A DNA stretch of 36,153 bases from Acidimicrobiales bacterium (GTDB lineage: Bacteria > Actinomycetota > Acidimicrobiia > Acidimicrobiales > Ilumatobacteraceae), in NCBI GenBank assembly GCA_947465505.1, contig CANIBN010000005.1, forward strand, positions 1-36,153. Reading direction: 5' to 3'. Shown in pieces: positions 9,862-34,023 of the stretch (positions within the stretch are counted from its first letter, which is position 1; every line of letters begins with the position of its first letter). The notes beneath the pieces were generated by a model. It was not told the DNA's origin, did no database searches, and was given only the letters and a program-made list of their open reading frames with translations. A program made the position numbers and the translations under genes.

Positions 9862-11409
9862 TTAGCTGAGGCCGAGGATGTTGACAACTACCGGCGTTGC
9901 CCGCGACGCGCTGATGCAGATGTCGCCGCCGCGCAAGGTGACCCATCGCTTCTCCGAGGCCGTCTCGCCCGCTTTCACGGTGACGAACGCCTTTCGGGCC
10001 GTGCCGCACTTGGCAACCAGCACGGTCGACTTCTTGTCGCCACCGGTGGCCGTGATCGACAGCAGCACCGCAGTTGCCTTCGCCGGCATGCCCTCGATGC
10101 TGCCGAGTTTGATGCGAATGACGTTGCCCTTGCTGGGAACCTTCTTGCCATCGACACTCTCGAGCACCTTGGTGACCTCGGTGAAGGTGTAGCGCCGCAT
10201 CCGCGGTGTCCACGCCCGGCGCACCTTCACGACGAGACGCGCATTGGTGCTCGTGGTGATGCACAACTTGCCCGACCCGCTCAGTTCCACCACGAGCGAC
10301 TTGGAGCCCTTCTTCTTTGCCCGGACCGTCATCACCTTGGACGGTTCGGTCTTGCAATCGCCCACCAGAACCGAGGTGGACTTCTTCGTTCCGGATACCT
10401 CGATCTTCACATCAGCCTTTGCAAGGTCCGACGGAAGCAAACCGGTTCCTGCGATCTGCACGGCAGTCTCGCTCTTGGCCTTCACGGCGTCGTCGTGCAC
10501 CGTGAGCGAGGGCGCATTGTTGGAAGCCGGGAGCAGATCGGGATCCTTGGGGGCATCCGTCGTGGTGCTTTCCTCGGGCTTGGCGGTCGTCGTCGGCTTC
10601 GCTGTGGTGGTGGTCTTCTTGACCGTGGTGGTCGTCGCCTTTTCCGTGGTGGTGGTGCGCTTTTCCGTGGTGGTCGTGCGCTTCTCGGTGGTGGTCGTGC
10701 GCTTCTCGGTGGTCGTCGTGCGCTTCTCGGTGGTGGGAGGTTCGGTCGTGGTAGTCGGAGGAGCGATCTTCTTCAGGCGCGGACCCTTGTAGCCACATCG
10801 ATCCACCTGGGCGACGTATGGCGTGGGGTCGACGGCCTTGCCGCCACCGGGGTGGATCTCGAAGTGGATGTGGGGTACGAACGTGTCGCCGGTGGACCCG
10901 ACGTAGCCGATGATGTCGCCGGCCTTCACCTTCGAGCCCTTCTGGATGCCCTCGGCGAAACTGCTGAGGTGGGCGTAGAAGTAGTAGGTGCCGTCGGGGA
11001 TCTGGATGGCGATTCCGTTGCCGGCGAGCTTTGCGCCTGAGTATTTCTTGGACACCCTGCCGTCGCGAACGGCGTAGATCGGCTTGTTCCGACCGGTGAT
11101 GATGTCGACACCCTCGTGCTTGCGGCCGCCCGAACGAGCAGCGCCCCACGAGTTCGCGTAGAAGCAAGGCCCATCGGTGGGGAACACATCAAGGGCCGCC
11201 GGGTAGCCATACGGCCTCGGCTTGATGGGCGGCGGGGCTGCGTGGCTGAACGTCAGGCCATTGGAGAGCAGAACCGTGAGGAGCCCGAGGACCAGCGTGC
11301 ACGCGACAACACCACGCCTCCAGCGTGAGCCGGGACGTGCTGTGGAACCGACCGGTTCCGCCCAGACCGGCCGCTCAGGGGTGTCCTTAGCGGTCAGCAA
11401 CGAGGTCAC
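9862..11409 (-). CDS. Secreted/anchored M23 (LytM-type) peptidase with Thr-rich repeat linker
   Basis: HEGVD and HIHFEIH metal-ligand motifs; N-terminal TM; TTTTEKR repeats; C-terminal unknown domain. Confidence 0.85.
   Translation of the reverse strand: MTSLLTAKDTPERPVWAEPVGSTARPGSRWRRGVVACTLVLGLLTVLLSNGLTFSHAAPPPIKPRPYGYPAALDVFPTDGPCFYANSWGAARSGGRKHEGVDIITGRNKPIYAVRDGRVSKKYSGAKLAGNGIAIQIPDGTYYFYAHLSSFAEGIQKGSKVKAGDIIGYVGSTGDTFVPHIHFEIHPGGGKAVDPTPYVAQVDRCGYKGPRLKKIAPPTTTTEPPTTEKRTTTTEKRTTTTEKRTTTTEKRTTTTEKATTTTVKKTTTTAKPTTTAKPEESTTTDAPKDPDLLPASNNAPSLTVHDDAVKAKSETAVQIAGTGLLPSDLAKADVKIEVSGTKKSTSVLVGDCKTEPSKVMTVRAKKKGSKSLVVELSGSGKLCITTSTNARLVVKVRRAWTPRMRRYTFTEVTKVLESVDGKKVPSKGNVIRIKLGSIEGMPAKATAVLLSITATGGDKKSTVLVAKCGTARKAFVTVKAGETASEKRWVTLRGGDICISASRATPVVVNILGLS
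9864..9873. repeat. Candidate target-site duplication, right copy
   Basis: AGCTGAGGCC, 2 nt outside the right inverted repeat; overlaps the 3' end of the M23 peptidase gene. Confidence 0.6.
10630..10740 (-). repeat. 21-bp tandem repeat encoding (TTTTEKR)n
   Basis: About five consecutive near-identical units of the form cggtggtggtcgtgcgcttct. Confidence 0.8.
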
Positions 11410-30639: not shown

Positions 30640-30685
30640 ACCCCCATCTTTCACCGTGGGGGCATCACGGCCTAGCGTTCGGGTT

Positions 30686-31636
30686 GTGGACGCCATCGAC
30701 CGCTTTGTCACTCCCGCCGATCGCTACGTGCGATTCGATCGTGAAGAGTGGGCGGACCTGCGCGCAGCCACCCCGTTGACCATCCGGGAGAAGGATCTCG
30801 AAGCGCTCCGTGGCATCAACGAGCGCATCGATCTCGCCGAGGTGGAGGCGATCTACCTCCCCCTCACTCGGCTGCTCAATCTCTACGTGTCGGCCACCCA
30901 GAACCTCCACAAGGTCACGGCCACCTTCCTCGGCACCATGTCGCCGAAGGTTCCCTACGTCATCGGCGTTGCCGGCTCGGTAGCCGTGGGCAAGAGCACG
31001 TTCGCCCGAATCCTCCAGGCGCTGCTGTCGCGTTGGCCGGACCACCCGAAGGTTGATCTGGTGACCACCGACGGATTCCTGCACCCGAACCGTGTGCTGC
31101 TCGAGCGGGAGATCATGAACCGCAAGGGGTTCCCCGAGAGCTACGACACCAAGCGCCTCCTGCAGTTTCTGCGTGAGGTAAAGGCCGGCACTGACGAAGT
31201 CCGCGCCCCGGTCTACAGCCACGTCGTGTACGACATCGTGGACGGCGAGGAGATCGTGGTGCGTCAGCCCGACATCCTCATCATCGAGGGCCTCAACGTG
31301 CTGCAGATGGGGCCTCCCGGTTCGGCGCCCGAGTTCGTGTCGGACTACTTCGACTTCTCGATCTACGTGCATGCCGAGGAGAGCGACATCCAGAACTGGT
31401 ACGTCGACCGCTTCCTCAAACTGCGAGAGACGGTGTTCCAGGACCCGCAGAGCTTCTTCCAGCACTTCGCCCATCTCACGCAGGACGAGGCGATCACCAC
31501 CGCCAAGGGCATCTGGCGCGAGATCAACGGACGCAACCTCGTCGAGAACATCCTCCCCACCAAGCACCGCGCAGCGTGTGTGCTCACCAAGGGTGAGGAC
31601 CACCGCGTCACCGACGTCGAACTCCGCAAGCTCTAA
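30686..31636 (+). CDS. coaA: Type I pantothenate kinase
   Basis: [60 protein letters not shown]. Confidence 0.96.
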
Positions 31637-31643
31637 CCACCCA

Positions 31644-31701
31644 TCGGTTTCCGGGCTTATTCCTGGTCGATATTCGACCAGGAATAAGCCCGGAATACGG
31701 G
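31644..31701. repeat. 58-bp repeat containing a 22-bp-stem hairpin, copy 1
   Basis: TTCCGGGCTTATTCCTGGTCGA-TAT-TCGACCAGGAATAAGCCCGGAA (31649-31695) inside a 58-bp block identical to copy 2 except in the loop. Confidence 0.92.
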
Positions 31702-31765
31702 GGAAGGTGGGGAAAGTTCGGCCCGGTGTCACGCGAACAGGCGAGTGGCGGCGTCATCACGTTGA

Positions 31766-32257
31766 ATGTTCGACATCGACGACACTCCCACCACCGGCAT
31801 CGCCGGCAACCGCACTGACGATCTCTGGCGTACCCACGCGCCGGCGATGATGCGGTTCGCCACGGTGCTCGTGGGCTCCACCGACGCCCACGACATTGCG
31901 GTGGAAGCCTTCCTGCGCAGTGCCCCGGCTGTCGTCAGCGGACGCGTGGACAACCCGCGCGCCTACCTGATGCGTGCCGTGGCAAACCGGGCCCACGACC
32001 TGCGCAGGGGTCGGGAGCGTCAATGGGTACGTGATCTCGCAGCGGTGCAGCCAGCATCGTCACCCGCGCACGAACCGAATGTCGACGTTCGCCGAGCCGT
32101 GGCAGAACTCAGCCTCACGCAGCGTGCCGTCATCTACTTCGTCTACTGGGAAGACCTCCGGGAACGAGACGTCGCTGCAGTGCTGGGGATCTCCCTCGGC
32201 TCGGTCCATCGTCACCTCGTGCGCGCACGCGCCCATCTCCGAAAGGCCCTCTCATGA
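31766..32257 (+). CDS. ECF-type RNA polymerase sigma factor
   Basis: Region 2 VGSTDAHDIAVEAFLRSAPAV, region 4 LSLTQRAVIYFVYWEDLRERDVAAVLGISLGSVHRHLVRARAHLRKAL. Confidence 0.82.
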   Translation: MFDIDDTPTTGIAGNRTDDLWRTHAPAMMRFATVLVGSTDAHDIAVEAFLRSAPAVVSGRVDNPRAYLMRAVANRAHDLRRGRERQWVRDLAAVQPASSPAHEPNVDVRRAVAELSLTQRAVIYFVYWEDLRERDVAAVLGISLGSVHRHLVRARAHLRKALS

Positions 32258-33570
32258 ACGGTCGCCAACACGATCCGCTCGACCACTCCATCCGCTCCGC
32301 CCTCCACGACATCGTGTCCGAGAGCCCCACCCCTGGCGAGTTGCCGGTGCGCTCGCTCGAACTGCGCCGCACGGCCGAGCCGGTGCGTTCGCGCCGCCCG
32401 ATGCTCGTGGCCGCAGCGGCCATCATCGCCGTGGCCGGTGTGGCCGGCACGGTCGCCGTCGCCAACCGGTCGTCCGGTCCGTCCAACCTTGGCACTGCCG
32501 ACACGATCGAGCAGTCCGACACGAGCGTCCCGACCGTCGCACCGACCACTTCGACCACTTCGACCACTGGGCTCGACGAGACGAGCACCGCACGGTTGCT
32601 CTATCCCATCGCCGCCGAGATGGACGTGTCTGGCGCGGTTTCCGCCGCATCAGTCAACGCCAGGGTGACCGGCACGGACTCCACCTGGATCGCCCACTCC
32701 ACGGCCTTCGTCACCCCCGAGGGTCACGTCGTCTCGGCGCAGGAGCAGAGCCGAGCGCTCGACCCTGTTCCTGCGGAACTGCCGACGCGAACGGTAGGTG
32801 ACAACGTGTTCCATCTCAGCAACGAGGAGGGCAACCGCGTCTACTTCGCAGCGGGCACCTGCCGCGCGGTGGCGGTGCTCCCCGGCAGCGAGACCTCGAA
32901 GTCCGAGCCGTGGTCGAACGATGCCCTCACGCTGATGGCAACGGTGGACCTCACGAGTCCCGACCGTTGGGTCACCGCGCCGAAGGGCTGGACGGAGATC
33001 GAGGGTGGTTTCGCCGAACTCATTTACGACGTCTCGTTCGCCGCGAACAAGCGTGGCCTCACCGGCACGAAGGCTCACCTGCGCCAGGCATTCGCGCCGC
33101 TCGGACTGCTCATCGGCGCCTCTGTGGGAATGGTGCGCGCCGAGCAGGTCACGATGAAGGGCCTGCCGGAGGGAACGAGCGATCAGGCTTGGGTACTCGT
33201 CAACAGCGATGGCCTGACCTACCTCGGATGGAACACCACGTTCGGATCGGCGTTGCTATTCCTCGAGGGTGACGATCCCTTCGCTGGCGGCGAGTTCCCG
33301 GGCGTGGTGCTCGAAGCCGGTCACGGCGAACTCTGGAACGCAGGGCTCACCGCAACGGCACAGGCAGCCGCACAGTCCTCCACCGAGACGACCATCCCCC
33401 GCGGCTCAGGCGATGTGACCACGAGCTATCCCGAGTCCGTGCAAATCGACACAACGGTTCAGATCACCGAGCAGTCGACCACGAGCTACCCGGAAGGCGT
33501 GACTCCCACCACGAGCCAGATCGCCGTGTCCACCACTCCGGCTTCCTGCAGTACTCCCGAAAACGGCTGA
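32254..33570 (+). CDS. Single-TM protein with large extracytoplasmic domain, putative anti-sigma/sigma-associated membrane protein
   Basis: ATGA overlap with the sigma gene; cytosolic N-terminus, TM MLVAAAAIIAVAGVAGTVAVA, Thr-rich stalk. Confidence 0.6.
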   Translation: MNGRQHDPLDHSIRSALHDIVSESPTPGELPVRSLELRRTAEPVRSRRPMLVAAAAIIAVAGVAGTVAVANRSSGPSNLGTADTIEQSDTSVPTVAPTTSTTSTTGLDETSTARLLYPIAAEMDVSGAVSAASVNARVTGTDSTWIAHSTAFVTPEGHVVSAQEQSRALDPVPAELPTRTVGDNVFHLSNEEGNRVYFAAGTCRAVAVLPGSETSKSEPWSNDALTLMATVDLTSPDRWVTAPKGWTEIEGGFAELIYDVSFAANKRGLTGTKAHLRQAFAPLGLLIGASVGMVRAEQVTMKGLPEGTSDQAWVLVNSDGLTYLGWNTTFGSALLFLEGDDPFAGGEFPGVVLEAGHGELWNAGLTATAQAAAQSSTETTIPRGSGDVTTSYPESVQIDTTVQITEQSTTSYPEGVTPTTSQIAVSTTPASCSTPENG

Positions 33571-33577
33571 ACCCACC

Positions 33578-33635
33578 TCGGTTTCCGGGCTTATTCCTGG
33601 TCGATTATCGACCAGGAATAAGCCCGGAATACGGG
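33578..33635. repeat. 58-bp repeat containing a 22-bp-stem hairpin, copy 2
   Basis: TTCCGGGCTTATTCCTGGTCGA-TTA-TCGACCAGGAATAAGCCCGGAA (33583-33629). Confidence 0.92.
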
Positions 33636-33663: not shown

Positions 33664-34023
33664 TTAGCGGTGGATGGCGTTGAGGTAGTTGTAGACCGTG
33701 ATCCGCGAGACGCCCATAGCGTCGGCGACATCCTCGACGGCGCGACGCAGGATGAATGCGCCACGTTCGTCGAGCAGACGGATCGCACGCTGCTTGTCCT
33801 CGCGTGAGAGGTCGGGAAGCCTGCCCCCGAGGTCTCGTTCCACTCCTTCGATGAGCCGGTCGAGTGCACCGTGCAGAGCAGGTAAACGCACCGCTACCAC
33901 CACCTGTCCGTCCCACACGATCGGGATGTCGGACGGTTCACGGTCTGCGGCAGCAACGAACTCGCCACCCATCGCCCGCACAAGCGGAGCGATCGAACTG
34001 AGCAGTGGGTGCTGGTCGTTCAC
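33664..34023 (-). CDS. YheO/HTH_22-type DNA-binding regulator
   Basis: C-terminal RGAFILRRAVEDVADAMGVSRITVYNYLNAI; GTG start at 34023. Confidence 0.65.
   Translation of the reverse strand: MNDQHPLLSSIAPLVRAMGGEFVAAADREPSDIPIVWDGQVVVAVRLPALHGALDRLIEGVERDLGGRLPDLSREDKQRAIRLLDERGAFILRRAVEDVADAMGVSRITVYNYLNAIHR

Follow-up and report, generated by a model that had tools for sequence, protein, structure and literature searches.

A dispersed family of long, U-less palindromes at gene ends in Acidimicrobiales, with two copies beside an ECF sigma operon that is inverted in a congener

The question raised by this locus is why two almost identical hairpins stand on either side of a small sigma-factor operon, each just behind a stop codon. 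The window, that is, the whole stretch of 36,153 nucleotides analysed here, is contig C5 of a draft genome (G000; 2.48 Mb, 237 contigs, 81% complete). Hairpin 1 (31644-31701, no strand assigned; stem 31649-31670/31674-31695, loop TAT) follows coaA (30656-31636, plus strand), which encodes a type I pantothenate kinase (TIGR00554, 2.9e-138). Downstream, also on the plus strand, are the genes for an ECF-type sigma factor of 163 aa (31766-32257; Pfam Sigma70_r2 and Sigma70_r4_2, sigma70-ECF above cut-off) and its membrane partner of 438 aa (32254-33570), which is anti-sigma-like by position, matches no Pfam family and resembles CU044_5270 weakly, below cut-off. Hairpin 2 (33578-33635, likewise unstranded; stem 33583-33604/33608-33629, loop TTA) is located where the partner gene converges with an HTH regulator gene on the minus strand (33664-34023; Pfam HTH_22, 6e-20), the stop codon of which faces it. 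The description given in the earlier note was borne out: the two 58-mers are the same apart from the loop, both 22-bp stems are perfect, each copy begins 7 nt past a stop codon (ending at 31636 and 33570, respectively), and no T-run lies beside either hairpin on either strand. Both therefore lack the U-tract right after the stem that characterizes a canonical intrinsic terminator. When folded as RNA, either strand of both hairpins reaches -52 to -59 kcal/mol, with z from -8.6 to -10 relative to shuffles. Comparison of stems across the family described below demonstrates that the window hairpins are each other's nearest copies, which implies that one gave rise to the other, whether by duplication or through inversion between palindromes. 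Elsewhere in the window, a 21-bp tandem repeat (GGTGGTCGTGCGCTTCTCGGT-like) occurs seven times at 10585-10752, probably representing a low-complexity protein stretch.

Further copies were sought in G000 by pattern and covariance model, and in sampled stretches. In a 390-kb sample, 25 hairpins were detected (stem of about 14 bp or more, at most two mismatches), as against none in a first-order shuffle. The pattern search of the genome returned 13 palindromes built around TTTCTGGTYGA-NNN-TCRACCAGAAA or near variants of this core, and also revealed a second subtype of gene-end palindrome, TTTCTTGTGAC-NNN-GTCACAAGAAA. The family covariance model (R1), built on 21 copies, scores hairpins 1 and 2 at 69.6 and 69.4 bits, respectively, and finds at least 24 complete copies in G000; two of the 24 (C169 and C183) are identical and both close to contig ends, and one further copy is interrupted by the end of contig C44. 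When 120 relatives were scanned with the model, about 19 copies were found in a congener (G001), at least 14 in G084, which belongs to another family within the order, and few each in G042 and G066. No copies were found in 113 of the 120, a second congener (G002) among them, and the hairpin family is therefore non-essential. The proposed count of the 58-mer hairpin thus disclosed copies genome-wide, and a dispersed palindromic element with a preference for gene ends, one of the options raised at the outset, is supported, 22 of the 23 copies classified among the 24 in G000 lying after a stop codon. Several other candidates were set aside. Model matches in G020 and G053 represent a distinct family of 49-50 nt palindromes (GATCTCGGCCGG...CCGGCCGAGATC; L174, L178 and L187 in G020, L222-L227 in G053), those of G053 being placed mostly off gene ends and often by gene starts. 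Another hairpin family, arranged in tandem (GTTCTCGGTCCCGAAAATGCAC / GTGCGTTTTCGGGACCGAGAAC), was observed in both congeners (L096:18826-18937, L092:14630-14745 and L198:1345-1400). The sole match among GTDB contigs (L016) is a lone unpaired arm attributable to chance, as are sub-threshold matches to animal and viral microRNA models in Rfam 15, where no match to the hairpins reached the gathering score. An inverted DNA-uptake-sequence terminator was ruled out, half-sites with at most one mismatch existing solely as inverted pairs.

The placement of the copies relative to genes was analysed with gene calls made from open frames and GC3, uncurated. Within 120 nt past the stop codon of a gene that reads towards the hairpin lie 52 of the 56 copies in G000, G001 and G084, at a median distance of about 13 nt and mostly 8-16 nt. 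Such a distance would fit a stem beginning just past a ribosome that has come to rest on the stop codon. Among the 42 placements with genes on both sides, 19 are convergent, 22 codirectional and one divergent, as compared with 13, 67 and 25 among background intergenic gaps no shorter than 50 nt. It can also be observed that, in 355 kb of G000, 15 of 167 gene ends are succeeded by a U-poor stem of at least 12 bp, as compared with 0-2 in shuffles; most of these stems are mutually unrelated in sequence. Canonical U-tract terminators at gene ends reach chance level only in this sample. U-less hairpins therefore look like the general style of G000, and the palindrome family would look like a repeated subset of it. 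A U-less terminator, another of the options raised by the earlier note, is accordingly supported as the likely predicted function by position, by the covariation described below and by the gene ends of G000 that carry no U-tracts. One copy in G000, L145:1559-1609 on contig C23, apparently lies within the 3' end of an ORF, in frame and just before the stop codon; the palindrome of the congener differs.

All copies align about the centre, ungapped, across 21 pairs, with stems of 21-27 bp, several invariant positions per arm and flanks of symmetric composition (44% C on the 5' side, 44% G on the 3' side). In the 21 aligned copies, 96.1% of cells are paired, and sliding the partner abolishes pairing. 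Compensatory double changes occur at 15 of the 21 pairs, amounting to 80 double-change cells versus 30.8 in shuffles, although such counts are not probabilities, given the relatedness of the copies, from which the structure had itself been picked. Greater weight is carried by the comparison of orthologues. Nine orthologous gene ends of G000 and G001 retain a hairpin, and of the 189 pairs compared there, 121 are unchanged, 34 differ on both sides with pairing preserved, 12 differ on one side, and 22 are broken in one genome. A generic terminator requires neither fixed length nor common sequence, and the uniform geometry and shared sequence therefore ask for an extra cause, either descent from a recent common source or a protein that reads the hairpins.

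In another reading, each palindrome would be a site in double-stranded DNA for a protein that binds as a dimer, either a chromosome organiser or a regulator. The fixed length and invariant positions would suit such sites. However, the joint variation of both arms at 15 of 21 pairs weakens this explanation, and the tight spacing from stop codons and the rarity between divergent genes favour RNA, leaving DNA binding sites very improbable. It should also be considered whether the copies are selfish, REP-like miniature mobile elements, moved by a Y1/RAYT or other transposase and tolerated mostly at gene ends, with any effect on RNA secondary. The family is indeed multi-copy and patchy (7 of 120 genomes), and its sites are filled in one genome and empty in another: C60 is a clean empty site in G001, where 68 nt including the hairpin are missing, the sites of C20, C112 and C15 are likewise hairpin-free there, and the G001 copy L208:419-470 is missing from G000. 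Furthermore, in eight of nine pairs the orthologue is a poorer match to the G000 copy than some other copy in G000 is, the ninth being a tie; copies are therefore gained, lost and partly homogenised. REPs are placed in a similar manner, convergent or unidirectional and often less than 20 bp from ORF 3' ends (PMC3733652). Set against these likenesses, PF01797, the Y1 (RAYT-type) transposase, was not found in any carrier genome (G000, G001, G020, G042, G053, G066 and G084, all incomplete drafts), nor any family copy in phages, plasmids and viral contigs, scanned partly by exact pattern. The GTAG/CGTC tag is absent, stems are much longer than those of REPs, and orthologous gene ends keep their hairpins through compensatory changes, so that mobile elements of this type are an unlikely explanation. 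Two loci at which the congeners also differ may be recorded here. Copy C112 lies beside a TPP riboswitch identified with Rfam, upstream of which G001 has about 1.07 kb extra (L229:1730-2900, contig C79, versus L103:7060-7200) where G000 has the hairpin. On contig C108 of G000 (L102:6842-7514), a hairpin and a 164-aa lipoprotein-like ORF are placed between the 3' end of another gene and a hairpin shared with G001; in G001 the shared hairpin comes immediately after that other gene, indicating that here, too, a gene was gained (or lost) next to hairpins.

The sigma operon itself suggests another possibility, namely that the hairpins are boundaries at which recombination between palindromes inserts or flips modules, the gene-end position simply reflecting modules of whole genes. 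The suggested check of synteny between coaA and the HTH gene demonstrated that, in other genera, the two are convergent and either adjoining or separated by one conserved gene; among the genomes searched, the operon lies between them only in G000 and G001. In G001 it is inverted within flanks that are collinear at 79-83% nucleotide identity in draft assemblies, and the segment 31727-32369 (plus strand) has 96.4% identity to the reverse strand of the congener (L105:3463-4105). An assembly error behind the inversion is unlikely, given shared stretches of about 28 nt. At 4-fold sites, identity between the two genomes is 98% for the sigma gene versus 57-62% for coaA, nudix, M20 and a small gene, and 38% for the HTH gene, far enough above its neighbours to imply that 31727-32369 was recently exchanged. 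The partner proteins are alike at the N-terminus and unrelated past about 32369, and this combination of a near-identical sigma segment with an unrelated sensor half would point to recent exchange or sensor swapping. A cassette delimited by the two hairpins, as proposed in the earlier note, thus stands in part: the operon is absent here in other genera, and the version in G001 lies the other way round and is unusually similar. However, the operon of G001 is accompanied by a single hairpin, which belongs to the other subtype and lies where coaA and the partner gene converge, and no hairpin of the window family was found beside its HTH gene; a relative with the operon and only one hairpin had been named beforehand as evidence to the contrary, and this therefore counts against a strict two-hairpin cassette. 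The gene and extra hairpin at C108 and the mutual closeness of the window hairpins agree with boundaries, but most copies are flanked by neighbours that keep a collinear order in the two genomes, with no inserted gene, and the inversion depends on draft assemblies. When the operon was un-inverted, 27/28-bp stems were restored and the window pair came out top among 210; this was dropped as proof, since any direct duplicate passes and such stems are equally expected from simple duplication. The orientation in G001 is, from comparison of the two sequences, an argument for a flip over plain duplication as the origin of the window pair. As a general account of the family, boundaries seem improbable.

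The answer to the question posed by the locus is probably that the window hairpins belong to a family of long palindromes, scattered through the genome and specific to certain lineages, that exert their effect in RNA at the ends of genes. Most likely, they would serve as U-less, bidirectional transcript-end signals, REP-like in habit. The transcript would fold into a very stable hairpin of 21-27 bp about 10-15 nt past the stop codon, and a single copy could serve two convergent genes, because the palindrome reads alike from either side. The hairpin would then set or shield the 3' end of the transcript: it could be a U-less (I-shaped) terminator, or it could stop 3'-exonucleases once Rho-dependent termination has taken place. 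Copies may come, go and partly homogenise through what we infer to be within-genome copying, and pairing may be upheld by selection, by template-switch repair, or by both. Regarding the window pair, one hairpin may have given rise to the other when the operon entered the space between coaA and the HTH gene, or flipped there, whether through local duplication or through inversion between palindromes. A broader version, in which the palindromes are both bidirectional transcript-end signals and exchange points where genes arrive, leave and flip, with partly concerted evolution within a genome, is conceivable but doubtful; if it were true, modules like the ECF-sigma operon would pass between species beside such hairpins. 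Transcript ends that lack U-tracts are little understood in high-GC actinobacteria, and the filled and empty orthologous sites of two congeners provide ready pairs for testing termination, RNA protection or mere spread. The family also offers a concrete example of a structured non-coding element that evolves partly in concert, and of an operon carried in opposite orientations by two sister species at such palindromes.

Several known systems resemble these putative transcript-end signals in part. REPs comprise the GTAG and CGTC superfamilies, with stems of 5-13 bp (GTAG) or 8-9 bp (CGTC) and a tetranucleotide tag; they are often paired as dimers, and those of the GTAG type occur with RAYT genes (PMC3733652). 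The window family resembles them as short dispersed palindromes in convergent and unidirectional positions near ORF 3' ends, at tens per family and unevenly among species. It differs in that copies are single, no conserved GTAG or CGTC occurs in the flanks of the 21 aligned copies, every copy has 21 paired positions, and the carriers have no detected Y1 transposase. Template switching (PMC8794818) produces hairpins in which perfect arms are similarly preserved via paired changes, and may help to maintain the arms here; being a mutational route, it alone leaves dispersed gene-end copies of the same sequence unexplained. In mycobacteria, hairpins that lack a U-tract and lie no more than 50 bp from the stop codon have been described as the main intrinsic type, although termination by them is disputed and a review cites both sides (PMC12288462); in Streptomyces, transcript ends that lack U-tracts have stems (PMC8780764). 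As judged from sequence, the family has the position and structure of these I-shaped or U-less actinobacterial terminators, a stable hairpin free of a U-tract within 50 bp past the stop codon (PMC12288462; PMC8780764). Unlike those hairpins, which are unrelated from gene to gene, the predicted terminators described here form one sequence family with a fixed geometry.
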